Origin: Clostridiales bacterium
Lineage (GTDB): Bacteria > Bacillota > Clostridia > Lachnospirales > Lachnospiraceae
Direction: 5' to 3'
Assembly (NCBI GenBank): GCA_012735495.1
Contig: JAAYHD010000021.1
Span: 1 to 64,000 of the forward strand
DNA length: 64,000 nt
The notes beneath the pieces were generated by a model. That model was given only the letters and a program-made list of their open reading frames with translations. It ran no database searches and was not told the DNA's origin. The first letter of the stretch is position 1. Every line of letters starts with the position of its first letter. Positions 3,694-26,398 of this stretch are shown here, in pieces. Both the position numbers and the translations under genes were made by a program.

Positions 3694-3788
3694 AAAATAT
3701 CACTCCCAAAAACTACATATTTTTTTACAGCACATTATATTGTATCAGTATGATTTTCGATATTCAAATCTAATAGTGATGGTTTTTT

Positions 3789-3810
3789 CGGCATTTTTGC
3801 CGTTTTATTT
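3789..3810 (+). terminator. Orphan short hairpin with T-tail
   Basis: CGGCA-TTTT-TGCCG followed by TTTTATTT. It has the form of a plus-strand intrinsic terminator, but no plus-strand gene lies upstream. It may end a short RNA or merely be chance in AT-rich DNA. Confidence 0.35.
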
Positions 3811-3913
3811 GTTGGTTTTTACGATAATATTTCGAAACAGCTGAAGGAAAAAGCGTATGACAGTATTTGATATGATATAGATTTTTATATAAAAAACCGC
3901 ATATATATAGATG

Positions 3914-3943
3914 TTGAATTATGGCACTATCATGAAGTATAAT
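3914..3943 (+). promoter_or_regulatory. Candidate promoter of FNR-like regulator gene
   Basis: TTGAAT, an 18-nt spacer and TATAAT. It is the best sigma-A type match in the intergenic region and would give a leader of about 130 nt before the ATG at 4079. Confidence 0.5.
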
Positions 3944-4078
3944 TAAACTCAATATAAAAACCATATGTTCACCGCTTGATTTGTTTGACAGTTGCAGGTC
4001 CGTTATAGCTTTGGAGTAATAACACAGTGCAGTATAAGTATTCCAGTTTGTTTGAAATATAGATTTGGGAGGTTCAGT

Positions 4079-4807
4079 ATGATTGTTCATTACAATTGCG
4101 AAAAATGCAAGGAGCATCTTTGCATACATAAGGTTCCGATTTTTTCGTCCCTGGATTCCGAGGACTTAAGAAAGATTATGAAGCTGATTACCCATGATGA
4201 GTATAAAAAAGGCGAAACAATTGTCTTTGAACAGGAAGTCATGGACAGCGTTATAATTATAAATGAGGGCAGCGCCAAGGCATACAAGACCACGGCGGAC
4301 GGGCGCGAGCAGATTCTATATGTTTTCTCCGAGGGCGATTTCTTTGGGGAGCAGAACCTCTTTACGGGCCAGCCATCAACCTATACGGTGGAAGCGCTTC
4401 AGCCGGTAAAGATATGCAAGCTGTCCAGAAACCAGTTCCAGGAGCTTTTATATCGTTATCCCGATATAGCGGTCAAGCTGATTGTCGAGCTTGGCGGGAG
4501 ACTTTCAAGGCTTGAGAACGCCATTCAGAGCATAGGCGTCAGGAATGTGGACAACCGTATCGGTTTTTTGCTGCTGGAATTTGCTGAAAAATACGGAACA
4601 AAAAATAAAAACGGAACCGTCATACATCTTCCGATAAGTAGGGAAGGCATGGCGAATTATCTTGGCGTGGCAAGGGAAACTGTAAGCAGAAAGCTTAGCC
4701 AGCTTGAGAACGAGGGCATCATCCGGTCCATAAGCAATAAGGAAATACTGATTCCCGAAATGAGCAGGATTGAGGAGCTGGCGGGAATTTCGTCTCATTT
4801 GCATTAA
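4079..4807 (+). CDS. CRP/FNR-family regulator with FNR-like Fe-S cysteines
   Basis: 242 residues from ATG 4079, which has GGGAGG upstream; the ORF-track start at 3992 has none. The N-terminal cluster Cys7-xx-Cys10-x4-Cys15 plus Cys113 (PVKICKLS) match the positions of the four [4Fe-4S] ligands of E. coli FNR (Cys20, 23, 29 and 122). A cyclic-nucleotide-binding-like beta roll spans about 22-120 (GDFFGEQNLF), then the dimer helix (about 128-160) and the helix-turn-helix with RETVSR (199-204). RETV-R readers such as CRP bind TGTGA half-sites, and a matching dyad lies upstream of the DUF1858 gene at 5690. An oxygen- or NO-responsive regulator is inferred; the cluster is not proven. Confidence 0.82.
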   Translation: MIVHYNCEKCKEHLCIHKVPIFSSLDSEDLRKIMKLITHDEYKKGETIVFEQEVMDSVIIINEGSAKAYKTTADGREQILYVFSEGDFFGEQNLFTGQPSTYTVEALQPVKICKLSRNQFQELLYRYPDIAVKLIVELGGRLSRLENAIQSIGVRNVDNRIGFLLLEFAEKYGTKNKNGTVIHLPISREGMANYLGVARETVSRKLSQLENEGIIRSISNKEILIPEMSRIEELAGISSHLH

Positions 4808-4885
4808 AAAATGATGTTCAAGTCTATTTAAGACTATTTATAATGAATAGATAATAAATGTATCAATTTATGTATTGAATTATGG

Positions 4886-4919
4886 CATGCCAAGTAAACA
4901 ACGGCATGTCTTTATTTTG
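4886..4919 (+). terminator. Weak terminator after FNR-like gene
   Basis: CATGCC/GGCATG stem of 6 bp with an 11-nt loop, followed by TCTTTATTTT. A modest match. A separate small hairpin with a TTCG loop (ATTCC-TTCG-GGAAT, 4932-4945) follows before rubrerythrin. Confidence 0.45.
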
Positions 4920-5002
4920 TGAATATGATTAATTCCTTCGGGAATACTTGTATTATGCATATTGGCAAATAATGTACGATTATTATCAAGGAGGTATTTA
5001 CC

Positions 5003-5617
5003 GTGGGAGTTGATTTCAAAAACAGTCGGACAAAGGACAATCTTATGAGGGCCTTTGCCGGGGAGAGCCAGGCAAGAAACAGGTATACATTTGCCGCGTC
5101 CCAAGCAAGGAAGGAGCATCATCATGTGATTGAAGCGATATTCAGGTTCACTGCCGACCAGGAGAAGGAGCACGCGGAGATCTTTTACGGGCACCTTAAA
5201 GAGCTTGCCGGTGAGAATATACATGTGGACGGGTCATATCCGGTTGATATATCAAAGGATATAACGGACCTTCTTCGCAGTGCGCAGCACAACGAATATG
5301 AGGAATATGATCCTATATACAAGAGCTTTGGAGACATAGCGAAAGAAGAGGGTTTTGACAGGGTTGCGGCATCATTCCACATGATTTCAAAAATTGAAAA
5401 AATCCATGGAGACCGTTTCGGAAAGTTCGCAAAGCTCATGGAGGAGGATAAGCTCTACGAGTCGGAAGTTGAAACCGGCTGGATGTGCTTAAACTGCGGG
5501 CACGTCCATTGGGGAACGGAAGCACCGAAGGAATGCCCCGTCTGTCACCATGACAGGGGGTATTTCATAAGGCTTGAGCTTGCGCCATTTCATACAATGA
5601 ATTTATCCGACGAGTAA
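5003..5617 (+). CDS. rbr: Rubrerythrin
   Basis: 204 residues with a GTG start behind a perfect AAGGAGG. The N-terminal ferritin-like four-helix domain has diiron ligand motifs around Glu21 (AFAGESQARNRY), EKEH (54-57) and the IEKIH motif (132-135). The C-terminal rubredoxin domain has Cys162-xx-Cys165 and Cys178-xx-Cys181. Rubrerythrin reduces hydrogen peroxide with electrons from NAD(P)H through rubredoxin-type carriers and protects anaerobes from oxygen. Neighbours are an FNR-like regulator and NADPH-producing enzymes. A strong terminator closes the gene, so it is probably monocistronic. Confidence 0.95.
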   Translation: MGVDFKNSRTKDNLMRAFAGESQARNRYTFAASQARKEHHHVIEAIFRFTADQEKEHAEIFYGHLKELAGENIHVDGSYPVDISKDITDLLRSAQHNEYEEYDPIYKSFGDIAKEEGFDRVAASFHMISKIEKIHGDRFGKFAKLMEEDKLYESEVETGWMCLNCGHVHWGTEAPKECPVCHHDRGYFIRLELAPFHTMNLSDE

Positions 5618-5626
5618 AAGGCCATC

Positions 5627-5659
5627 AACACCGGTGTTTCCTGCCGGTGTTTTTTCTTT
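5627..5659 (+). terminator. Terminator of rubrerythrin gene
   Basis: Perfect 8-bp stem AACACCGG/CCGGTGTT with a 9-nt loop, running into TTTTTCTTTC. Confidence 0.9.
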
Positions 5660-5689
5660 CGCAGCTTTTTGAGCCTGCCATACTTTATT

Positions 5690-5705
5690 TGTGATTTATG
5701 TCACG
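5690..5705 (+). promoter_or_regulatory. CRP/FNR-type operator upstream of DUF1858 gene
   Basis: TGTGA-TTTATG-TCACG, a TGTGA-N6-TCAC dyad of the CRP/Bacillus-FNR type, about 100 nt before the DUF1858 start. The FNR-like protein encoded at 4079 carries RETVSR in its recognition helix, so it is the obvious candidate to bind here. The right half continues as GTCACGGTAATAA, which recurs with three changes at 12206. Confidence 0.5.
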
Positions 5706-5808
5706 GTAATAATAATTTTAATAAATTATATTTTACATAAGGAATCGGCAGGAAATCGTAATTGCATGTTGCGCGGTTTCATAATATCATGAATTTGGAG
5801 GATATATT

Positions 5809-6039
5809 TTGGCAGGAAAAGCTATTGATTTAAATAAAAGCGTATATGATTTATGCAATGAGCATAAGGAGCTTCCGCAGCTTCTGCACGATCTTGGATT
5901 TGTGGACATAATCAAGCCGGGTATGCTGCATACGGCGGGAAGGTTTATGACTTTAAAGAAGGGCGCGGCTTTTAAGAAGGTCAGCCTGGACTTAATAAAG
6001 GAAACCCTCGCGGTGAACGGATACGAAATTATAGACTAG
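5809..6039 (+). CDS. DUF1858-domain protein
   Basis: 76 residues with a TTG start behind TTGGAGG. The whole protein is one DUF1858 domain (SVYDLCNEHKELPQLLHDLGF, then KPGMLHTAGRFMTLKKGA), a small domain often linked in anaerobes with hybrid cluster proteins or DUF438 sensors. No cysteine pair of the redox-disulfide subtype is present, only one Cys. A CRP/FNR-like dyad lies upstream, and the DUF438-hemerythrin-PAS gene follows 3.7 kb downstream in the same direction. Biochemical role unknown. Confidence 0.8.
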   Translation: MAGKAIDLNKSVYDLCNEHKELPQLLHDLGFVDIIKPGMLHTAGRFMTLKKGAAFKKVSLDLIKETLAVNGYEIID

Positions 6040-6069
6040 AGCATATTAACATATATGTTTTTAAATAAC

Positions 6070-6096
6070 GAAACCTTGATGCATCATCAAGGTTTC
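6070..6096 (+). other. Perfect 12-bp hairpin before gnd
   Basis: GAAACCTTGATG-CAT-CATCAAGGTTTC, 22 nt before the gnd start and just before its ribosome site. There is no proper T-run after it (TTGTAAAT), so it is more likely an attenuator, RNA-stabilising structure or operator than a full terminator. Confidence 0.6.
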
Positions 6097-6118
6097 TTGT
6101 AAATAAGGAGGTAATCGG

Positions 6119-7534
6119 ATGGCAAAACAAAATGTTGGTCTTATCGGGCTTGCGGTGATGGGAAAGAACCTGGCATTAAACATTGCAGACCACGGGTATT
6201 CGGTATCCGTGTATAACCGTTCAAGGGAAAAAACGGACAGCCTCTTGGACGAAGCAAGGGATAAGAGCATAATTGGGACTTATTCATTGGATGAGTTCGT
6301 TAATTCGTTGGAAAAGCCGAGAAAGATCATTCTTATGGTCAAAGCCGGAAAGGCTGTGGATGAAATGATTGAGCAGCTTCTTCCGCTGCTTGAGCCGGGG
6401 GATTTGCTTATGGACGGTGGCAATTCCAATTACCTTGATACCATTGAAAGAAGCAAACGGCTTGAAGAACACAATATTCTCTATCTTGGCACCGGCATAT
6501 CCGGCGGAGAGGAGGGTGCGCGGTTCGGCCCCGCAATCATGCCCGGCGGAAGCCATGAGGCATATAAAATGATGGAGAACCTTCTTAAGGATGTGTCGGC
6601 CAAGGTTGACGGCGACCCGTGCTGCACATATATCGGTAAAAACGGTGCCGGGCATTTTGTCAAAATGGTCCACAACGGCATAGAATATGCCGACATGCAG
6701 CTTATTGCCGAAGCATATTCAATACTAAAGCAGGTTCTTGGGCTTTCACCTTCGGATTTTCATGAGATATTTGCCGAGTGGAACAGGGGAGAGCTAAACA
6801 GCTATCTGATTGAGATAACCGCGGATATCTTCACCAAGAAGGATATTGAAACAGGCAATTACCTGGTTGACATGATTTTGGATGTGGCGGGACAGAAAGG
6901 CACGGGAAAGTGGACGGGACAGATTTCCCTCGAGCTTGGAGTGCCTGCCCCGACCATTGCCGCAGCCGTTTATGAAAGATACATTTCAACCATGAAGGAG
7001 GATAGGGTGGCTGCAAGCAGGACTCTTGCAGGACACGGCAAGCTCCCCAAGGCTTCATATTCAAAGGAGGAAGCTAATAAATTCATTGAATCCGTAAGAA
7101 GGGCGCTTTATGCCAGCAAGATATGTGCATATGCCCAGGGCTTCGGACTTATGCGCGCTGCCGACATGCAGTACGAATGGGGGCTTAATCTGGGTGATAT
7201 CGCAAGGATCTTCCGGGGCGGGTGTATTATCCGCGCGCAATTCCTCAATAAGATCATGGAAGCATACGCCCGAAAGAAGGATCTGGTCAATCTACTTTTG
7301 GCGGATTACTTCAAGGATGCGGTCAGCGCCTACCAGGAGGACTGGAGAGACGTTGTCGCCACCGCCATTTACCACGGCATTCCTACACCTGCGTTCATGA
7401 GTGCCCTGGCCTACTACGACAGCTACAGAAGCGCAGAGCTTCCGATGAACTTGATTCAGGCCCAGAGGGATTATTTTGGGGCTCATACCTACATGCGCAA
7501 GGATAAGGAAGGAGTGTTCCATACAAATTGGTAA
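6119..7534 (+). CDS. gnd: 6-phosphogluconate dehydrogenase (decarboxylating)
   Basis: 471 residues, the full length of the long (E. coli-type) enzyme. It oxidises 6-phosphogluconate to ribulose 5-phosphate plus CO2 while reducing NADP+. The N-terminal Rossmann motif is [20 protein letters not shown] at residues 34-36 is compatible with NADP. The family signature [14 protein letters not shown] is intact and [17 protein letters not shown] carries the catalytic Lys. The start ATG has AAGGAGG. Directly followed by zwf (56 nt), giving the two NADPH-generating steps of the oxidative pentose phosphate pathway; the lactonase gene is not here. Confidence 0.95.
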
Positions 7535-7590
7535 AATGACGTAATTTAGTCGCCATAAATATATTATGTAAACAGAAAGGGGGTCCGGAT

Positions 7591-9069
7591 ATGATTGATA
7601 TGTCTGCAATACTTGTGATATTCGGAGGAACGGGCGATTTAACCCACAGAAAGCTGATGCCCGCCCTTTATAACATGCTCCTGGACGGTATCGTACCTGA
7701 GCACTTCAGGGTGGTGTCAATAGGAAGAAGGGATAAGACCGTTGACGAGTATAGGAATGAAATACGGGCATCCATTGATAGATACTCAAGAAACAAGGTT
7801 GATGAAAATATATGGTCGAAGCTTTGCGGCATGATATCATACTACAGGTTCGATTTTAGGGATTTTGAAGGATATCCGAAGCTGAAGGCTTACCTGGATA
7901 ATCTGGACAAAGAGGCAGATACCAAGGGGAACAGGATATATTACATGGCTGTTGCTCCCGAGTATTTTGAGACAATCGTTCATGGTCTGCACATTGCGGG
8001 AATGGCAAGGCAGGAGGGCTCATGGAGCAGGCTGGTGATTGAAAAGCCGTTCGGAAAGGACCTTAAGACCGCAAGGCATCTTAACCAGAAACTGCTCGAG
8101 GTATTTGACGAAAAGAGCATATACAGGATTGACCATTATCTTGGAAAAGAAATGATTCAGAACATAATGGTTCTCCGGTTCACCAACTCAATATTTGAAT
8201 CCATATGGAACAACAAGTTCATTGACAACATCCAGATTTCCCTTACGGAGAAGCTCGGTGTCGGGACCAGGGGAAATTATTATGAGAACTCCGGCGCCAT
8301 GCGTGACATGGTACAAAGCCACATCATGCAGATACTATCGCTTGTGGCAATGGAGCCTCCTGTTAACCTAAAGACCGATTCCATCCGTACCGAGAAGCTC
8401 AAGGTGCTTGAGGCAATTGAAGATATTACGCCCGAGTTTCTTAGGGAAAATGTAGTATTCGGCCAATACGGGAGGGGGTTCATAGACGGGGTTCCCGTCG
8501 TGGGATACAGGGAGGAAGCAAATATCCCGAAGGATTCGAATACTGAGACCTTCGTCGCGTTAAAGCTTCATATAAACAACTTCCGTTGGGCGGGAACGCC
8601 ATTCTATATCAGGACGGGAAAAAGGCTCGGTACATACGGTGCCGAGATTGTGATACAGTTCAAGGATTTGCCGAACATCCTTTATTTCAGCGACGGACAC
8701 ATTCAGGAGCCGAATCTTCTGGTAATAAGGATACAGCCAAATGTCGGCGTGTTCTTCCAGTTCAACACCAAGGATTTTACCTCCCACCACGGCATCGTGC
8801 CCACCAAGATGGACACCAGCTATGAGAATCCCAGCCAGGGAAATACCCCTGAAGCATATGAAAGGCTGATTTATGACATATTAAGAGGGGATTCAACCCT
8901 CTTCTCCAGGTGGGATGAGGTGGAAGCGTCATGGACCATAGCGGACAGGATTATTAAATACAGGGAGCAGGGAAACGTGAAGTTCCCGAATTATGACGCG
9001 GGCTCCATGGGGCCTGTCAGATCCTTTGAGCTTCTTGCCAGGGACGGCAGGAAATGGTGGAACATATAA
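7591..9069 (+). CDS. zwf: Glucose-6-phosphate 1-dehydrogenase
   Basis: 492 residues. N-terminal NADP-binding VIFGGTGDLTHRKLMPAL and the active-site signature RIDHYLGKE are both intact, with EKPFGKDL preceding. It converts glucose 6-phosphate to 6-phosphogluconolactone with NADP+ reduction in the cytoplasm. The ATG has AAAGGGGG upstream; a second Met four codons in is possible. Cotranscribed with gnd and probably with the cyclase-family and DUF438 genes downstream, since spacing is short and no terminator is seen until 12065. Many clostridia lack the oxidative branch, so the pair may serve oxidant defence. Confidence 0.95.
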   Translation: MIDMSAILVIFGGTGDLTHRKLMPALYNMLLDGIVPEHFRVVSIGRRDKTVDEYRNEIRASIDRYSRNKVDENIWSKLCGMISYYRFDFRDFEGYPKLKAYLDNLDKEADTKGNRIYYMAVAPEYFETIVHGLHIAGMARQEGSWSRLVIEKPFGKDLKTARHLNQKLLEVFDEKSIYRIDHYLGKEMIQNIMVLRFTNSIFESIWNNKFIDNIQISLTEKLGVGTRGNYYENSGAMRDMVQSHIMQILSLVAMEPPVNLKTDSIRTEKLKVLEAIEDITPEFLRENVVFGQYGRGFIDGVPVVGYREEANIPKDSNTETFVALKLHINNFRWAGTPFYIRTGKRLGTYGAEIVIQFKDLPNILYFSDGHIQEPNLLVIRIQPNVGVFFQFNTKDFTSHHGIVPTKMDTSYENPSQGNTPEAYERLIYDILRGDSTLFSRWDEVEASWTIADRIIKYREQGNVKFPNYDAGSMGPVRSFELLARDGRKWWNI

Positions 9070-9085
9070 AGGGGAGGGTTACAAA

Positions 9086-9730
9086 ATGATAATCAATACG
9101 GATAAAATGCAAATACATGACATTTCAATGCCCATAACAAAGGCAATGCCGGTTTACAAGGGCAAGGACTTTAAAAAGCCGGTCATTACCATAGACAGCG
9201 ATTTTTCCACCGGTACCGCTTATGAAACCAGGCTGGAGATGAACCTTCACACAGGGACCCATCTTGATACACCAAAGCACATGATCCCTTCCGGCTATAC
9301 CATGGAGGAAATGATGCTGTCCAGGGTGGTAACCGCCTGCAAGGTATTTGACCTGACCGGTGTAAAGGAAAAAATAACAGAAAAGGACCTTGTAAACCTG
9401 GATATAGGGGAAGGGGATTTCATCCTTCTAAAGACCAGGAATTCATATGAAAACATACTTGAAAACGACTTCGTGTATGTAAGCATGGATGCGGCGGATT
9501 ATCTCGCGAGACGGAAGGTAAAAGGCGTAGGAATAGACGCCTTGGGGATAGAAAGAAGCCAGCCGGGCCATGAGACCCATAAGATATTATTTGATGCGGA
9601 TATCGTTATTCTTGAAGGGATTGTGCTTAAGGACATTGAAGAAGGGGAGTATTTCCTTCATGCCGCTCCGATCAGCATACCCGGAGCGGAAGCGGCGCCG
9701 GTAAGGGCTTATCTTATTAGACAGCTGTAG
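9086..9730 (+). CDS. Cyclase-family (kynurenine formamidase-like) metal hydrolase
   Basis: 214 residues from ATG 9086, which has GGGGAGGG; the longer ORF-track start at 8993 lies inside zwf. The metal-binding signature HTGTHLDTPKH (His55-His65) defines the cyclase family PF04199, which includes bacterial kynurenine formamidases and other amide or lactone hydrolases. HDISMPI near the N-terminus and GIDALGIE later are also typical. The substrate is not known. Its position 16 nt after zwf invites the idea of lactone hydrolysis, the missing 6-phosphogluconolactonase step, but nothing in the sequence proves it. Confidence 0.85.
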   Translation: MIINTDKMQIHDISMPITKAMPVYKGKDFKKPVITIDSDFSTGTAYETRLEMNLHTGTHLDTPKHMIPSGYTMEEMMLSRVVTACKVFDLTGVKEKITEKDLVNLDIGEGDFILLKTRNSYENILENDFVYVSMDAADYLARRKVKGVGIDALGIERSQPGHETHKILFDADIVILEGIVLKDIEEGEYFLHAAPISIPGAEAAPVRAYLIRQL

Positions 9731-9792
9731 AATACCCCAAATTCCTTATGTATGCACAGAACGTAAATAAATATGATTAAAGGAGGAAAGAC

Positions 9793-11079
9793 ATGAGCGA
9801 ATACATCAATAACAGGGAATACAGGCAAAAAGTGTTAAAGGAGCTTATAATGGAGCTTCATAATGGGAAAACTGTTGATGAGGTCAAGGAGAGGTTTGAA
9901 AAGCTTATTGAAGGTGTTTCGGCCGCCGAGATCTCAATGATGGAAAACCAGCTTATCAGGGAAGGGCTGCCGGTATCGGAGGTTCAAAGGCTGTGCGATG
10001 TCCATGCCGCGGTATTCAAGGGCTCAATTGAGGAGATTCATATGCCCGACAATCCTGCCGAGATACCGGGACATCCTGTCCATACATTCAAGATGGAAAA
10101 CAGGGCACTTGAGCGCCATATGGAAAAGAGCATCAAGCCTGTTTTAAATGAACTTAAGCAAACTGACAGCCCCGGGCTTCGCAAAAAACTCATGGAGGAA
10201 TACACTAAGCTGTACGAAGTGGACAAGCATTATCTTAGAAAAGAAAACCTTCTTTTCCCGTTCCTTGAGAAATATGGAATCACCGCGCCTCCGAAGGTTA
10301 TGTGGGGCGTTGATGACGAAATCAGGGAGGACATTAAGAACGTGCTTGCCATGCTCAGGGATGATGAAAGCAAGGCAGAAGTACTTGTAGAAAAAGCCGA
10401 GGCCGCCATGGGCAGGGTCAGCGAAATGATTTTCAAGGAGGAAAACATTCTGTTCCCTATGGCAATGGATACGCTGAACGAAGATGAATGGATGAAGATT
10501 GCAAGAGAAAGCTCCGAGCTTGGATACTGCCTGTATGAGCCGAAGAAGGAATGGAAACCGGCCAGGGTAAATGTTGAGGAAAAAACAAAAATGGAAAGCA
10601 CGAAAGATTCGGAAACAGAAGCTAAGGAACCTGCCGGTGACGACCGTGCCTGGGGCACACAGGAAAACGGCGGCGGTTACATTGCCTTTGAAACCGGTGT
10701 TCTTTCGCAGAGGGAACTGGAAGCCATGCTTAATACGCTGCCCGTTGATATCACATTTGTAGATAAGGACGGTATTGTAAAGTACTTCTCTCAGGGTACC
10801 GAAAGGATATTCCCAAGAACAAAGGCTGTTATCGGAAGAACCGTAACGAACTGCCATCCTCCGGCCAGCGTTCATATCGTTGAGAAGATCGTGGAAGACC
10901 TGAAATCCGGCAAAAAGGATCACGAGGATTTCTGGATAAAGATGAAAGGCATGTATGTCCTTATTCGATATTTTGCCGTAAGGGATAGGAACGGAGAGTT
11001 TGTGGGAGTCCTTGAGTTCACCCAGAACATTGCGCCGTTAAAGGAAATAGAGGGAGAAAAAAGACTATTGTCCGAGTAA
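9793..11079 (+). CDS. DUF438-hemerythrin-PAS sensor protein
   Basis: 428 residues in three parts. The first (about 15-85) is DUF438. The second (about 95-240) is a hemerythrin-like HHE domain with histidine/glutamate motifs HPVHTFKMENRALERH, HYLRKENLLFPFLEK and FKEENILFP, suited to a diiron site. After an acidic linker comes a PAS domain (about 305-425; ITFVDKDGIVKYFSQG to VGVLEFTQNI). There is no kinase, GGDEF or DNA-binding output, so it probably binds O2 or NO or signals by protein contact. AAAGGAGG precedes the ATG. It fits the redox theme of rubrerythrin, the FNR-like regulator and DUF1858 nearby. Confidence 0.9.
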   Translation: MSEYINNREYRQKVLKELIMELHNGKTVDEVKERFEKLIEGVSAAEISMMENQLIREGLPVSEVQRLCDVHAAVFKGSIEEIHMPDNPAEIPGHPVHTFKMENRALERHMEKSIKPVLNELKQTDSPGLRKKLMEEYTKLYEVDKHYLRKENLLFPFLEKYGITAPPKVMWGVDDEIREDIKNVLAMLRDDESKAEVLVEKAEAAMGRVSEMIFKEENILFPMAMDTLNEDEWMKIARESSELGYCLYEPKKEWKPARVNVEEKTKMESTKDSETEAKEPAGDDRAWGTQENGGGYIAFETGVLSQRELEAMLNTLPVDITFVDKDGIVKYFSQGTERIFPRTKAVIGRTVTNCHPPASVHIVEKIVEDLKSGKKDHEDFWIKMKGMYVLIRYFAVRDRNGEFVGVLEFTQNIAPLKEIEGEKRLLSE

Positions 11080-11193
11080 TTGTTGACTAATCCATGTTTT
11101 AGCACTATTATTATCTTATTATAAGAATTGTCATGATTTTGCCGTGGTATGAAGTTACAAATGATTCTTTAAATAGGATGAGGAGACAATAGG

Positions 11194-12045
11194 ATGAGTA
11201 TAGTTAAAATTGTTGCAGACAGTACTTGTGATTTGTCAAAAGAATTGCTTGAGGCTTATGATGTTACCATAATCCCGCTCATGATTTCCCTGGGGGAGAC
11301 AACAAAAAAGGATTTAGTTGAAATCACTCCTGACGAGATATACGAATGGTCGGACAAGACGGGCCAGACACCGAAAACAGCGGCGCCCACTATAGGGGAT
11401 GCATACGCGATACTTCAGCCTTTTATGGAACAGAACATGGACATAATATTCTTCGGCATATCCGAAGCCATGTCCGCCACCTGTAATGTAATAAGGCTAG
11501 TTGCGCAAAATCACGGGTATGACAGGCTTTTTGTCGTGGATTCCAAAAACCTGTCGACGGGAATAGGCCTTCAGGTGCTTCGTGCCGCGGCTATGGCGAA
11601 AAAAGGCGCCCCAGCGGAGGAAATACTTAAAGATAACGAGAGGATTAACGGCAAGGTTAGGGCAAGCTTCGTGGTGGATACGCTTACTTACCTCCACCGC
11701 GGGGGAAGATGCTCCGGAGTAAAAGCAATACTGGCAAACACCCTCCGTCTCAAGCCCGAGATAGTCGTAAAGGACGGCAGGATGGATGTTGGCAAGAAAT
11801 ACAGGGGAAATATAAAATCGGTTCTTATGAAATATGTTGAGGACCGTAAGGACCAGCTGCTTGATGCCGATCCCGAGCGGGTATTTATCACGCATTCGGG
11901 CTGTGACAGTGATATTATCGAATCAATCAGGCAATTTCTTGCGGGCTTGAATGTATTCAAGGAAATTCTTGTTACCCGGGCAGGCGGTGTCATATCAAGC
12001 CACTGCGGGCCAAACACCCTGGGAGTATTGTATATCAGCAACTAA
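11194..12045 (+). CDS. DegV-family fatty-acid-binding protein
   Basis: 283 residues, the usual DegV/FakB length. The N-terminus KIVADSTCDLSKELL and the central TAAPTIGDAY (Thr-rich loop) are family marks, as is LHRGGRCSG near the middle. DegV proteins bind a fatty acid; in some bacteria they hand it to the FakA kinase for phosphorylation and phospholipid synthesis. GAGGAG precedes the ATG. A strong terminator follows. No fakA partner lies in this window, so lipid delivery is inferred from the family. Confidence 0.9.
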   Translation: MSIVKIVADSTCDLSKELLEAYDVTIIPLMISLGETTKKDLVEITPDEIYEWSDKTGQTPKTAAPTIGDAYAILQPFMEQNMDIIFFGISEAMSATCNVIRLVAQNHGYDRLFVVDSKNLSTGIGLQVLRAAAMAKKGAPAEEILKDNERINGKVRASFVVDTLTYLHRGGRCSGVKAILANTLRLKPEIVVKDGRMDVGKKYRGNIKSVLMKYVEDRKDQLLDADPERVFITHSGCDSDIIESIRQFLAGLNVFKEILVTRAGGVISSHCGPNTLGVLYISN

Positions 12046-12064
12046 TGAAAAATAGCCATAAAGT

Positions 12065-12121
12065 CCGCCTCATAATTCCAGGGCATATTCGAATGCCGTA
12101 TGGATTATGGGGCGGTTTTTC
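12065..12121 (+). terminator. Terminator after degV-family gene
   Basis: Nested hairpin: CCGCC pairs with GGCGG, ATAAT..CCA with TGG..ATTAT, and the inner GGCAT with ATGCC, followed by TTTTTCT. It closes the transcript running from the DUF1858 or gnd region. Confidence 0.85.
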
Positions 12122-12205
12122 TATGGGTTATTATATGGGTATTTAATTTATGTGCATTAAATGGCAAAAATTACCTGACGGATAACGGATAACATTATGG
12201 CACAT

Positions 12206-12222
12206 TTTGTCACGGTTATTAA
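12206..12222 (+). promoter_or_regulatory. Half-site repeat of the 5690 operator
   Basis: TTTTGTCACGGTTATTA matches the right half of the 5690 site (TTATGTCACGGTAATAA) at 14 of 17 positions, in the same orientation about 60-75 nt before the small ORF at 12281. The left half is poor here (GGCAC). Shared control with the DUF1858 promoter is possible. The 383-nt gap 12046-12428 otherwise holds the terminator and the small ORF. Confidence 0.35.
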
Positions 12223-12280
12223 AACTTTATCAAATTAAAATTTTGATAATAGATAAATCATATAAGGAGAAAATAATATT

Positions 12281-21635: not shown

Positions 21636-21664
21636 TTGACATATGAAGATTGACATATTATGAT
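21636..21664 (+). promoter_or_regulatory. Promoter of Rnf-like operon
   Basis: TTGACA, 17-nt spacer, TATGAT; five of six at -10 and perfect at -35. The -35 is part of a direct repeat TTGACATAT-gaaga-TTGACATAT (14-bp period). The leader to the TTG start is about 40 nt. Confidence 0.8.
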
Positions 21665-21709
21665 TATTTAGGTATATGTAATTGTAAACTTATAGCAGGA
21701 GGGCCAGTT

Positions 21710-23044
21710 TTGAGACATTATTTTCATGGTGGTATACATCCGTCCGACGGTACCGATAAAAGGCTGAGCAATCAAAAGCCTATTCGGGTATATACCCCAC
21801 AGGTTGTTGAGGTTTCCATGAAACAGTCCCCCGGCGGCTTTTGTGATGCCGTTGTAAATGTGGGAGACAAGGTTGCAAAAGGCGATCTGATCGGGAAACC
21901 CGTATCCTTCAGCGGAGCAAACATTCATGCAGGTATCAGCGGAACGGTTACCGAAATCAGAATAGATCAGGATGCTTACGGCAGGGAAGTAAAAACGGTG
22001 GTTATACAGGCTGACGGCACAGGCAATGAAAAAAAAGACTCCGTATGCGAATACGAGGAAAAGATTATCGACCTGTCCGGTTATGCCAGGGAAGATATTA
22101 TAGCCAATATGAAGGAAGGCGGCATAATCGGTCTTGGCGGCGCGGGATTTCCTGCGCATATCAAGTATGAGACAAAGGAAAAAATCAAATATATTCTTGT
22201 TAATGCTGCAGAATGCGAGCCATATCTGACCTGTGACCATATGCTTGTTATGGAGCATGGGTATGCCGTTATTAACGGGGTACTGCTGTTGGTCAAAGCA
22301 TCAGGTGCCGATAAGGCTATTATTTGTTTTGAGGATAACAAGAAAGACGCGGCCGGACATTTGCAAGATATTATTTCCAATACGGAGCTGCCGGTGGAAA
22401 TAAAAATTCTTCCTACAAAGTATCCACTGGGCGGAGAACGGCAGCTGGTTGAAGCGGTGCTTCATATGGAGGTTCCGGCCGGGAAGCTGCCGGCAAGCAT
22501 AGGTGTCATTATTAATAATGTTGGTACGGCAAAAGCCGTTGCCGATATGGTTATCGGGGGCAATCCCCTGACATCCAGGGTTGTTACCGTTACAGGCAAG
22601 GTAAGGGAACCCGGCAACTACCTGGTGCCCATAGGCACGAGGTTTACCGAGTTAATCAATCTTTCAGGCGGATTTACTGCAGAAAACTGCAGGGTAATTG
22701 AAGGAGGCCCGATGACAGGCCATTGCCTGCAGATAGGCGGTACGCATGAAGAACTAATGGGAAGCGTGGCAAAAACCACCTCGGCGATAGTGGTTCTCGA
22801 GGATACATCGAAGGTGGAGACGCCTTGTATCCGATGCGGTGAATGCGAAAGAGTATGCCCAGCGGGGCTGGCTCCGTTTAAAATTGATTTTGCCGCGATT
22901 GAAGACGATATTGACTTGTGCAGAAGGCTTTACGCAACGGAATGTATCAGCTGCGGCTGCTGTTCATATGTATGCCCGGCAAAAAGGGAGCTGGCATACA
23001 GGATAACGGAAGCCAAGACGGAGATACTCAGGCATAAGGCTTAA
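21710..23044 (+). CDS. rnfC: Rnf complex subunit C (NADH-oxidoreducing peripheral subunit)
   Basis: 444 residues from TTG 21710 behind AGGAGGG; the earlier ORF-track start has no site. Order: N-terminal RnfC barrel domain (HPSDGTDKRLSNQKPI), the flavin/NADH-binding GLGGAGFPAHIKYE, a SLBB segment, and two [4Fe-4S] motifs CIRCGECERVCP and CISCGCCSYVCP near the C-terminus. In Rnf it passes electrons between NAD(H) and the membrane subunits. All expected motifs are intact. First gene of a C-D-G-E-like operon. Confidence 0.93.
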   Translation: MRHYFHGGIHPSDGTDKRLSNQKPIRVYTPQVVEVSMKQSPGGFCDAVVNVGDKVAKGDLIGKPVSFSGANIHAGISGTVTEIRIDQDAYGREVKTVVIQADGTGNEKKDSVCEYEEKIIDLSGYAREDIIANMKEGGIIGLGGAGFPAHIKYETKEKIKYILVNAAECEPYLTCDHMLVMEHGYAVINGVLLLVKASGADKAIICFEDNKKDAAGHLQDIISNTELPVEIKILPTKYPLGGERQLVEAVLHMEVPAGKLPASIGVIINNVGTAKAVADMVIGGNPLTSRVVTVTGKVREPGNYLVPIGTRFTELINLSGGFTAENCRVIEGGPMTGHCLQIGGTHEELMGSVAKTTSAIVVLEDTSKVETPCIRCGECERVCPAGLAPFKIDFAAIEDDIDLCRRLYATECISCGCCSYVCPAKRELAYRITEAKTEILRHKA

Positions 23045-23063: not shown

Positions 23064-24038
23064 ATGAAGCTTAAAACTGGTAAGGAATTACATGAGGTCA
23101 GTCCGCATATAGTGGATGACAGATCTACAAAGGTTATTATGCAGGATGTTGTCATCGCGATGATACCTGCTTTGCTTGGCGCGATATATTTCTTTGGTAT
23201 CAACGCCCTGATACTTACTGCAAGCAGTGTGGCAACCTGTGTTTTATCGGAGTACATCTGGCAGAGGCTTAGAAAAGAGCCGTTGACGGTGGGAGACTGG
23301 AGTGCCGTTGTAACCGGCATGCTTATTGCGTTTAATGTACCGGCCACCACTCCCATATGGGCTGTCATGATTGCATCGGTGTTTGCGATTATTGTGGTAA
23401 AGCAGTTCTTCGGCGGAATAGGAAGCAACTTTGCAAATCCCGCGCTGATGGGAAGAGCGCTTTTAATGTTCCTGTGGCCTGCTTCGGTATCAAGCTATGT
23501 TACGACATATCATTCCGGTGTTGATGCTGTAAGCTCTGCAACAGTTCTGGGACTGTATAAGTCCGGCTCGGATTTAAGCAGATTTTCAAAGTGGGATATG
23601 TTTATCGGCAACATACCGGGCTGCCTGGGTGAGACGAGCGCGCTGCTTTTACTGATTGGGTTTGCTTACCTGTGCTACAGAAAGGTTGTCAACCTGGCTG
23701 CAACCGGAGCATACATTATAACGGTACTTGCAATGACATTCGTTTTTGCCCGGGATGGGCTGTTTAAAGGCGACATACTTACAAACCTGCTTTCTGGAGG
23801 ACTGATACTGGGCGCATGCTTTATGATGACCGACTATGCATCGGTGGCTCCCAGGGTCAAGGTTGTACTGTCAATCATAGCCGGCCTGGTAACGGCGGGC
23901 ATAAGGCTGTGGGGAATGCTGCCCGAAGGCGTGAGCTATGGAATTCTGACGGCAAATTGCCTGTCGGGACTTGTTGAAACGGTAATCAGACCTCACATAT
24001 ACGGTGTAGGGCTGAAAAAGCAAAAAAGCAAGATTTAG
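23064..24038 (+). CDS. rnfD: Rnf complex subunit D (FMN-binding membrane subunit)
   Basis: 324 residues with about nine or ten membrane helices. The covalent FMN site is seen as DAVSSATVLG, with Thr160 as the attachment residue by family analogy. GGIGSNFANPALMGRA is the conserved RnfD/NqrB motif. Ion translocation has been assigned to this subunit in related complexes. TGGAGG precedes the ATG, 19 nt after rnfC. Confidence 0.93.
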   Translation: MKLKTGKELHEVSPHIVDDRSTKVIMQDVVIAMIPALLGAIYFFGINALILTASSVATCVLSEYIWQRLRKEPLTVGDWSAVVTGMLIAFNVPATTPIWAVMIASVFAIIVVKQFFGGIGSNFANPALMGRALLMFLWPASVSSYVTTYHSGVDAVSSATVLGLYKSGSDLSRFSKWDMFIGNIPGCLGETSALLLLIGFAYLCYRKVVNLAATGAYIITVLAMTFVFARDGLFKGDILTNLLSGGLILGACFMMTDYASVAPRVKVVLSIIAGLVTAGIRLWGMLPEGVSYGILTANCLSGLVETVIRPHIYGVGLKKQKSKI

Positions 24039-24075: not shown

Positions 24076-24597
24076 ATGAAGGATAGCAGATTAAGAGGAA
24101 TAATTGCATTAGCGGTTGTAACAATTGTTGCGTTTGGTGTAATTTACGGAAGCAGAATACTGGTAAAGGATGAAAATGGCGGCGCCGATAACGGAGGCAA
24201 GGTTGAGGAAGAGCTTCCGGGAGCGATAGATGTACAGGGAGCAGAAGGAATAATATCAGCCAGAGAGATAACCGATGACAGCGGCAATGTCACCGCATAC
24301 TCTGTTGTTGCCAAGGCAAAGGGCTTTGCGCCTCCTACCAATCCTGTCACATGGGAGATTATATTTGAACCTGACGCAAAGACCATCCGGGAAGTTAAGA
24401 TTGTCAGCCATGGTGAGACTGAAGGATATGGAGCAAAAATGGAGGAAGAAAGCTATCTTGCGCAGTTTAAGGGAATGTCAGCGGAAAACGGCAGCGAGAT
24501 CGATGCCATTTCAGGCGCTACCATGACTACGGAAGCAATCAGAAAGCTTGTCAGCAACGCATATAATTTCATCAGCAATTATGCAGCGAATAAATAG
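24076..24597 (+). CDS. rnfG: Rnf complex subunit G (FMN-binding)
   Basis: 173 residues from ATG 24076 (AAAGAGGA upstream). One N-terminal membrane anchor (about 8-26), an acidic linker, and the FMN_bind domain with the flavinylation site ISGATMTT (146-151). The extracytoplasmic domain would carry covalent FMN, attached by an ApbE transferase; no apbE lies in the window. Somewhat short for RnfG. Confidence 0.92.
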   Translation: MKDSRLRGIIALAVVTIVAFGVIYGSRILVKDENGGADNGGKVEEELPGAIDVQGAEGIISAREITDDSGNVTAYSVVAKAKGFAPPTNPVTWEIIFEPDAKTIREVKIVSHGETEGYGAKMEEESYLAQFKGMSAENGSEIDAISGATMTTEAIRKLVSNAYNFISNYAANK

Positions 24598-24618: not shown

Positions 24619-25395
24619 ATGAAGGCTAAATACCCTATAGAAGCATTTGCACTGGCAATGGTGGTATTTTCACAGAATATGAGAAATGCCCTGGTAACAG
24701 GTATTCTTATATTGCTGATTGCCACTTTGGGACTTGTGCTGGACCATATATTCGGGGATATGATTCCAAGGTGGAGCAGGGTTTCCTGCAGTATAATCCT
24801 GATGACGGCCGTCACATATTCATTATTCCAGGTCGTACTGCTGGCGGTGCTGGGATTTGAGATACAGCAATCGGACGCCATTTTCCATATATTCTTAGGC
24901 ATCCTGATAGCCAAACATATTATTGACATGGATGGTGAACAGGATTACAACAGGCTTTTGCTTGAGGACGCCGGAGCGTACGCCGTACTGCTTGTCATAT
25001 CGATTATAAGGGAATTCATGGCCGGCGGTGCCGTATTCGGATATAAAATTGCGGAATTCAGCCTTAGGTCCGGCAGCTTTTCAAATGTAATTATGGGGTT
25101 TATACTGGCGGGTATTGGGCTTGCCGTGCTTAACGGAATATTCAGGAGCGGCACAAACACGGGTGCGGTGGATGGCTTCCTTGTAGTCTTTCCTGTTGTG
25201 CTGGAGATTCAGCCTTTCATCATAGACAGCATCGGTGAAGCCGCCAGTGTGGCAATAACGGCGGCAATAGCCTTGGTATTGTTCTATTCCGTTAAGAGAT
25301 ACCTGATTTTTTCGAAATTGGGCAAGGGAATAAAAAATCTGCCGGTGGATTTGGTTTCAATGGGGTTTATTTATATGATCCTTTCAATGTTTTAG
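24619..25395 (+). CDS. Divergent Rnf-Nqr membrane subunit (RnfE/A-like) lacking cluster cysteines
   Basis: 258 residues with about seven membrane helices, in the place of rnfE. The stretch VISIIREFMAGGAVFG corresponds to the conserved IREILGxGTLFG of RnfE, and the helix pattern before it also fits. The two cysteines that RnfA and RnfE use to hold the membrane [2Fe-2S] cluster (LGxCP and NCxILG regions) are missing; the protein has only one Cys, near residue 58, elsewhere. The C-terminus is about 50 residues longer than usual. There is no second copy and no RnfB in the operon. Confidence 0.75.
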   Translation: MKAKYPIEAFALAMVVFSQNMRNALVTGILILLIATLGLVLDHIFGDMIPRWSRVSCSIILMTAVTYSLFQVVLLAVLGFEIQQSDAIFHIFLGILIAKHIIDMDGEQDYNRLLLEDAGAYAVLLVISIIREFMAGGAVFGYKIAEFSLRSGSFSNVIMGFILAGIGLAVLNGIFRSGTNTGAVDGFLVVFPVVLEIQPFIIDSIGEAASVAITAAIALVLFYSVKRYLIFSKLGKGIKNLPVDLVSMGFIYMILSMF

Positions 25396-25502: not shown

Positions 25503-25868
25503 ATGAAGAAGAATGATATTTTCTTAATATGCGGCATTATATTCATAATTGCGTGCAGCTTTCTTTTGGTTTTTGCGTTCCGGTCGGAAGGAAGCCGCGT
25601 GCTTGTTGTGGTGGATAAAGAGGTGTACAAGGAATTCGACCTGAATGAAAACACTACATATGAAATTCGGCAGGAAAACGGGGAACGCAATGTAATAGAA
25701 ATTAAAGACGGATATGTAAGGATGACCGAGGCGAGTTGTCCTGACAAGCTGTGTGTAAAGCAGGGGTGGATCCGCTATAATTACGAGTCCATTACATGCC
25801 TGCCAAACAAGGTGTATGTCCGTATATCCGGCGGCGAGGAAGGCGAATTGGATGCCGTGGCGGAATAA
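25503..25868 (+). CDS. NusG-domain-II protein, exported (EetA-like)
   Basis: 121 residues. N-terminal membrane anchor (about 7-26), then a single NusG domain II fold with the conserved ASCPDKLCVKQGWI and ITCLPNKVYVRI blocks, both with cysteines. Despite the name it is not a transcription factor; such proteins sit outside the membrane next to Rnf or flavin-based extracellular electron-transfer genes. ATAAGG precedes the ATG weakly. Paired with the Gx-transporter gene. Confidence 0.85.
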   Translation: MKKNDIFLICGIIFIIACSFLLVFAFRSEGSRVLVVVDKEVYKEFDLNENTTYEIRQENGERNVIEIKDGYVRMTEASCPDKLCVKQGWIRYNYESITCLPNKVYVRISGGEEGELDAVAE

Positions 25869-25894: not shown

Positions 25895-26398
25895 ATGAAA
25901 CCTAAAAGAATTGCCTTATACGGTTTGTTTATAGCGCTTGCGTTTATATTCAGTTATATAGAAAGCCTGATTCCAATTCCTTTTCCCGTTCCGGGAGTAA
26001 AGCTTGGACTGGCAAACCTTGTGGTCGTAGTCGCCATGTATGGTATGGGCGTAAAGGAAGCGTTCGTATTGTCCATTGTCCGTATCCTGCTGGTGGGATT
26101 TACGTTCCGCGACCCGTCAACGATGATATTCAGCCTGGCGGGAGGATTATTAAGCTGGCTTATGATGGCAGTCTTTAAGAAGCTTAAGCTTTTCAGCATG
26201 GTGGGAGTCAGCATAATCGGAGGAATATCCCATAACATCGGACAGATTATTGTGGCTATCCTGTATGTCAATAATACAAGCATCATATATTACCTGCCGT
26301 TTTTGATGGTTTCAGGACTGGTGAGCGGAACACTAATCGGCTTGCTTGCGGGGCTTGTATTGAAAAGACTGCAGAAATTCTTTTTATATGAGAAGTAG
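25895..26398 (+). CDS. Gx transporter family / heptaprenyl diphosphate synthase component I-like membrane protein
   Basis: 167 residues with about five membrane helices. PFPVPGVKLGLANLVVVVAMYGMG is the hallmark of the Hpre_diP_synt_I / Gx-transporter family, and FRDPSTMIFSLAGGLLSW and GGISHNIGQI also fit (ECF-transporter S-component-like fold). The usual annotation as a prenyl synthase is doubtful because it is a membrane protein. AAGGAG precedes the ATG. The pair with the NusG-II protein is recurrent beside Rnf and resembles the EetA/EetB pair of flavin-based extracellular electron transfer, as I recall it. Confidence 0.85.
   Translation: MKPKRIALYGLFIALAFIFSYIESLIPIPFPVPGVKLGLANLVVVVAMYGMGVKEAFVLSIVRILLVGFTFRDPSTMIFSLAGGLLSWLMMAVFKKLKLFSMVGVSIIGGISHNIGQIIVAILYVNNTSIIYYLPFLMVSGLVSGTLIGLLAGLVLKRLQKFFLYEK

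Follow-up and report, generated by a model that had tools for sequence, protein, structure and literature searches.

The window analysed here, a stretch of 64,000 nucleotides of a Lachnospiraceae genome (contig JAAYHD010000021.1 of assembly GCA_012735495.1), contains a row of six genes, all on the + strand, of which the fourth, referred to below as X (24619..25395), is the main subject of this study. The row begins with second copies of two rnf genes, rnfC2 (21710..23044), whose product matches TIGR01945 rnfC above the cut-off (E=4.5e-123) and contains the RnfC_N, 51K FMN and SLBB domains, and rnfD2 (23064..24038), which matches TIGR01946 rnfD, likewise above the cut-off (E=2.1e-78). These are followed by rnfG2 (24076..24597), encoding an RnfG-like protein with one FMN_bind domain (PF04205, E=1.1e-14) and one N-terminal hydrophobic stretch, by X itself (258 aa), by the gene of a small NusG_II-domain protein (25503..25868; PF07009, E=5e-32), also with an N-terminal hydrophobic stretch, and by an eetB-like gene for an ECF S-component (25895..26398; PF07456, E=1.3e-42, with a weak ECF_trnsprt match), after which a malic enzyme gene is found. 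No RnfB gene follows X in this row, the next gene being that of the NusG_II-domain protein, which we take to be EetA-like and whose homologues adjoin X or rnfC2 in several relatives.

The open reading frame list places the start of rnfC2 at TTG 21650, which is probably too early, since the sequence AGGAGGG at 21698-21704 precedes TTG 21710; for rnfG2 the listed start is TTG 24070, and an ATG is present at 24076. X starts with ATG and has the purine-rich site AAAGGAAAGGG just upstream. Consensus matching alone gave a promoter-like site at 21636-21664, upstream of the likely rnfC2 start, and no + strand terminator-like site inside the row.

The three proteins encoded ahead of X retain their cofactor motifs: in RnfC2, compared with RnfC1, the FMN-type GLGGAGFP stretch and two four-cysteine [4Fe-4S] motifs, in RnfD2 (324 aa, with PF03116 as its sole domain) the flavinylation-type motif VDAVSSATVL, and in RnfG2 the motif DAISGATMT. 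PF07456 is the family defining EetB, which in Listeria is an FAD-binding export subunit (PMC9973259), so that the presence of an eetB-like gene fits flavin supply and its product is likely to export FAD for flavinylation. Such a neighbour is not peculiar to X, given that eetB lies beside Rnf in 572 Clostridia genomes (PMC9973259).

Searched alone against Pfam, the X protein of the window gives no match, so that ordinary annotation would overlook it. A first-pass annotation based on the letters of the window had nevertheless recognised the core of RnfE in it (X carries IREFMAGGAVFG at residues 130-141), and the comparisons made here bear this out. A profile built from 27 members of the X family matches the solved structures of RnfE (7zc6_E, E=1.6e-7), NqrD (7xk3_D, 3.6e-6) and RnfA (9eri_A, 1.6e-4), and in a profile-profile comparison residues 17-184 match Clostridia RnfE with a probability of 96.5 and E=8e-10. 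An AlphaFold2 model of X as a single chain (pLDDT 85, pTM 0.87) was searched with Foldseek, and the top 11 PDB matches were all NqrD or RnfE chains with probabilities of 0.98-1.0, TM-scores to the target of 0.42-0.61 and modest E-values (0.012 to 0.31); the next, unrelated matches had probabilities of 0.18 or less. The likeness of X to RnfE is thus beyond chance, and membership in an unrelated family, an outcome that would have overturned the first reading, is rejected on the strength of these profile and Foldseek matches. Invariant across the family are G28, R131, E132, G165, P192 and P242, with no Cys or His among them.

In Acetobacterium woodii the membrane [2Fe-2S] cluster, which lies between RnfA and RnfE and occurs only in Rnf and Nqr, is held by RnfA C25/C113 and RnfE C25/C108, and mutating these ligands stops ferredoxin-dependent NAD+ reduction (PMC11889175); the matching residues of the normal pair encoded in the window genome are RnfE C29 and C112 and RnfA C30 and C118, in the numbering of the listed frames. 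X contains a single cysteine, C57, one residue from where the first reading had placed it, and both the LGxCP and the NCxxL motifs are absent. The alignment of the 27 members contains no conserved cysteine column, the commonest being column 57 with Cys in 13 of 27. The first RnfE cysteine aligns to L12 or V15, depending on gap placement, and the second near I95, and aliphatic residues occupy these columns (12/15 and 95) in the 27 members. The region bearing the first RnfA cysteine is missing from X, and the second corresponds roughly to Q198 when placed by eye, or meets a gap when the profiles are aligned, so X also falls short of a complete RnfA. Judged from these alignments, a cluster of the RnfA/RnfE type is unable to form in X, because every ligand position is either substituted or missing.

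That X is not a plain RnfE emerged when the family alignment was cut in two and each part compared with both RnfE and RnfA. Residues 1-182 match RnfE with a probability of 96.8 (E 2e-10) versus 0.7 (E 0.08) for RnfA, and residues 183-258 match RnfA with a probability of 93.7 (E 2e-7) versus 0.2 (E 0.27) for RnfE. The same profile behaves alike against solved structures, its first part matching RnfE/NqrD and its second RnfA/NqrE, and the invariant P192 and P242 align with the prolines of the RnfA LP and GxP motifs. By its sequence, then, X is a chimera, RnfE/NqrD-like over residues 1-182 and like the C-terminal third of RnfA/NqrE over residues 183-258, and the reading of it as a plain RnfE is rejected. 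In the normal operon of the window genome rnfA directly follows rnfE, and X occupies the place that the two would have. X probably originated when rnfE and the adjoining rnfA became fused within a duplicate of the rnfCDGEAB operon; since rnfE directly precedes rnfA, a deletion running from the end of the former into the latter would be the simplest origin. Such a duplication fits the arrangement in some genomes (L008/L098, L092 and L097), where a normal rnf operon immediately precedes the X locus or is found close by. The literature searched for partial, second or truncated Rnf contained no cluster-free RnfE-RnfA chimera, a weak sign of novelty given that subscription papers lay largely outside the search.

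By profile search X was found in 25 of 397 Lachnospiraceae genomes, representing 18 genera, and, the window genome apart, full-length X was absent from the samples of 391 genomes of the class and 399 of the phylum. The partial matches from outside Lachnospiraceae that were read proved to be ordinary RnfE or RnfA, save for one divergent pair: L038 and L040 (genomes G686 and G636) carry a different RnfE and RnfA, and the aligned pair of L040 retains just one of the four cluster cysteines, that of the RnfA NC motif, and has lost the other three. The RnfD encoded beside this pair is itself very divergent and has the motif FSTTPAS.

Across the 18 genera X is full length in nearly all members, and purifying selection acts on it, with pN at 0.20-0.23 and pS at 0.74-0.78; the synonymous sites are close to saturation. 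Most X loci share the order rnfC2-rnfD2-rnfG2-X, with X directly after the rnfC-rnfD-rnfG homologues; they almost always lack an rnfB, rnfA or rnfE of their own, and an rnfB gene occurs in the vicinity of X only if the locus has a complete, normal rnf operon alongside. In one locus (L094:10680-13337, genome G281) RnfC2 and RnfD2 are fused in a single frame of 886 aa. In an RnfD tree the X-linked proteins group in a single clade (27 leaves, support 1.0), which includes RnfD2 of the window and has no member from loci without X. At least two RnfD matches were obtained in 23 of the 25 genomes with X, versus 15 of the 372 others; when the RnfD copies of these 15 were added to the tree none joined the X-linked clade, and as potential counter-examples they were rejected, each being either canonical or a fragment of a disrupted gene. 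In place of the ATPL that is usual in canonical RnfD, the X-linked RnfD proteins have the motif [AP]T[VI]L or TTVL, and they retain the Thr to which flavin is attached in Rnf.

A normal RnfE/RnfA pair is encoded in 23 of the 25 X genomes. Among them is the window genome, which carries a complete canonical rnfCDGEAB on contig C12; X is therefore not its only RnfE, and is dispensable for normal Rnf. One of the X genomes, G223 (97% complete), contains no credible RnfA/E and, elsewhere, only an rnfC and a divergent rnfD; its weak Rnf-Nqr match was set aside as false, as the 486-aa frame around it resembles an FtsW/RodA protein. The X locus of another genome (G316, 87% complete) is likewise without a credible RnfA/E pair. 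A canonical rnf operon of another kind of setting was observed in G368 (L151, contig C110, about 3700-12260), where, judging by eye, it is flanked on one side by genes for ResB/CcsA-like cytochrome c maturation and on the other by the gene of an NrfA-like multihaem cytochrome, and where the RnfD frame of 516 aa is possibly an RnfD-RnfG fusion.

We consider it probable, at roughly two chances in three, that RnfC2, RnfD2, RnfG2 and X form a distinct second Rnf-type complex which works in one direction, has lost the ferredoxin arm and contains X as a redox-inactive scaffold. What would be lost is the arm leading from ferredoxin through RnfB and the [2Fe-2S] cluster of RnfA/RnfE. As there is no RnfB to exchange electrons with ferredoxin, the simplest path would run from NADH to RnfC2 (FMN and two [4Fe-4S] clusters), to RnfD2 (flavins), to RnfG2 (covalent FMN on the outside) and from there to an extracytosolic acceptor. 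X would fill the place of the RnfA/RnfE dimer and position RnfG2 and RnfD2 in the membrane, a role suggested by its lack of ligands, and EetB, possibly together with the NusG_II-domain protein, would help to supply flavin for flavinylation by ApbE. The first-pass annotation had supposed that electrons could not cross the membrane by the usual route. This appears correct for the ferredoxin arm, with no cluster and no RnfB in the locus, and does not extend to the RnfC-RnfD-RnfG arm, where outward flow would still be possible because all three proteins are retained with their cofactor motifs.

The direction of flow is deduced from neighbouring genes and from fusions in other genomes. In L093 the RnfG slot encodes two full FMN_bind domains and in L092 three; in several other X loci its product is 300-476 aa long and gives between two and four FMN_bind matches, among which there may be pieces of one split domain. 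In G037 (L112) and G368 (L113) the slot encodes an FMN_bind domain followed by a FAD_binding_2 domain, as in fumarate/urocanate reductases. Together with the missing ferredoxin arm, these fusions of RnfG2 to a reductase suggest one-way flow to the outside flavin domain. In the window genome no reductase partner was found, its five FAD_binding_2 matches being short or weak; ApbE is present in two copies. On its contig C22 an ApbE gene lies about 3.2 kb from that of a small FMN_bind protein (L149:5010-5960 and 9185-9664), which has an N-terminal hydrophobic stretch and may be an additional flavin carrier on the outside. In G368 (94% complete) X comes directly after the RnfG-FAD_binding_2 fusion (L113:5811-8424), with no rnfC or rnfD beside it and no second RnfC/D, which may reflect assembly loss or real variation. 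As X here follows an RnfG fusion without adjoining rnfC or rnfD, it may not always need RnfD2, and RnfG, not RnfD, may be the partner to which it is tied.

Among the alternatives to a passive scaffold, X may still drive ion transport, its fold carrying Na+ or H+ through alternating access as RnfD2 and RnfG2 conduct the electrons, the whole forming an outward redox pump. In A. woodii RnfA/E is a proposed passage for Na+ (PMC12174285), and X retains the fold, several glycines, the RE pair and the prolines; however, in that proposal the switch is powered when the AE1 cluster is reduced (PMC12174285), a cluster that X is unable to form, and X lacks at least half of the RnfA subunit, so that we regard this as unlikely. 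The broader suggestion that the complex couples one-way flow from NADH to an extracytosolic acceptor to the export of Na+ or H+, with no need for a membrane [2Fe-2S] cluster, is speculative and in our view rather doubtful. It is less probable still that the four proteins are not self-standing and depend on RnfB, RnfA and RnfE supplied by the normal operon, or that X regulates the normal complex, as might be supposed from the presence of two normal-type Rnf-Nqr genes in 23 of the 25 X genomes and from the adjacency of X and normal loci in some of them. An RnfE-like X would compete for the RnfE site, RnfD2 belongs to a separate clade, and the X loci of G223 and G316 occur without a credible RnfA/E pair, which in the case of G223 argues that the X complex borrows neither subunit.

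The transfer of electrons through X by another cofactor, whether haem, quinone or flavin and possibly in a homodimer, as the first-pass annotation had offered, is very improbable: there might be room for a cofactor, an organic one included, in a membrane protein with such a fold, but the family has no invariant Cys or His that could serve a metal, and RnfD2 retains a flavin motif and is able to serve RnfG2. The homodimer is further disfavoured by the RnfA-derived C-terminal third that X already contains, which makes it look more like a condensed RnfE and RnfA pair than like half of a dimer. Nor is X easily seen as a decaying, functionless remnant of RnfE. It is among the faster-evolving genes of the operon, with 62-67% identity where RnfD2 has 84%, yet its near-universal full length over 18 genera, purifying selection and fixed place after RnfG2 contradict decay and leave that explanation largely refuted.

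A family in which the fold is kept and all ligands are gone represents a natural separation-of-function variant, which could show what roles RnfA/E have beyond carrying electrons and whether RnfD alone moves electrons and ions. If the preferred reading of a one-way RnfCDG-X complex is true, it would constitute a route from NADH to an extracellular acceptor in gut Lachnospiraceae, including Blautia. Compared with Rnf itself (RnfABCDGE of A. woodii and Clostridium tetanomorphum), the X locus has homologues of RnfC, RnfD and RnfG in the usual order, and X is homologous to RnfE and to the last third of RnfA. It differs in having no RnfB, no separate RnfA or RnfE and none of the four AE1 cluster cysteines, for which reason the complex would have no ferredoxin:NAD+ activity by the known route, and in the RnfD motif, which is SATVL where Rnf has SATPL.

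Unidirectional NQR/RNF-like systems have been proposed in which a fusion of RnfD/NqrB to NqrF (PF00175) works with an RnfG-like protein (PMC8238504, PMC10979944). These systems (Meheust et al. 2021, PMC8238504; mSystems 2024, PMC11334425) share with the reading of the X complex favoured here the idea of a single Rnf/Nqr arm, through which NAD(P)H would supply electrons to an FMN domain outside the cytosol. They consist of two apparent subunits, whereas the X complex keeps RnfC and adds the chimeric E-A subunit, and RnfD2 has no PF00175 fusion. RnfCDG-X therefore lies outside both survey definitions, the RnfD-NqrF fusion and the RnfB-based RNF, and surveys keyed to either are unable to count a route of this type. 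With the Listeria EET locus it has in common an EetB-family gene, a NusG_II gene and an outside FMN_bind protein, and with them the logic of flavin export and flavinylation (PMC9973259); Ndh2 is not seen in the gene row of X, and electrons would instead enter via RnfC/RnfD. In Na+-NQR (NqrA-F), NqrD and NqrE are homologous to the two parts of X, although the X complex is without NqrF, has lost the cluster cysteines and has its E and A subunits fused and shortened. It has been proposed that NQR arose when an rnf operon was duplicated and its rnfB was then lost (PMC4014512), and the X complex, if our reading is true, would be a second and independent outcome of such an event.
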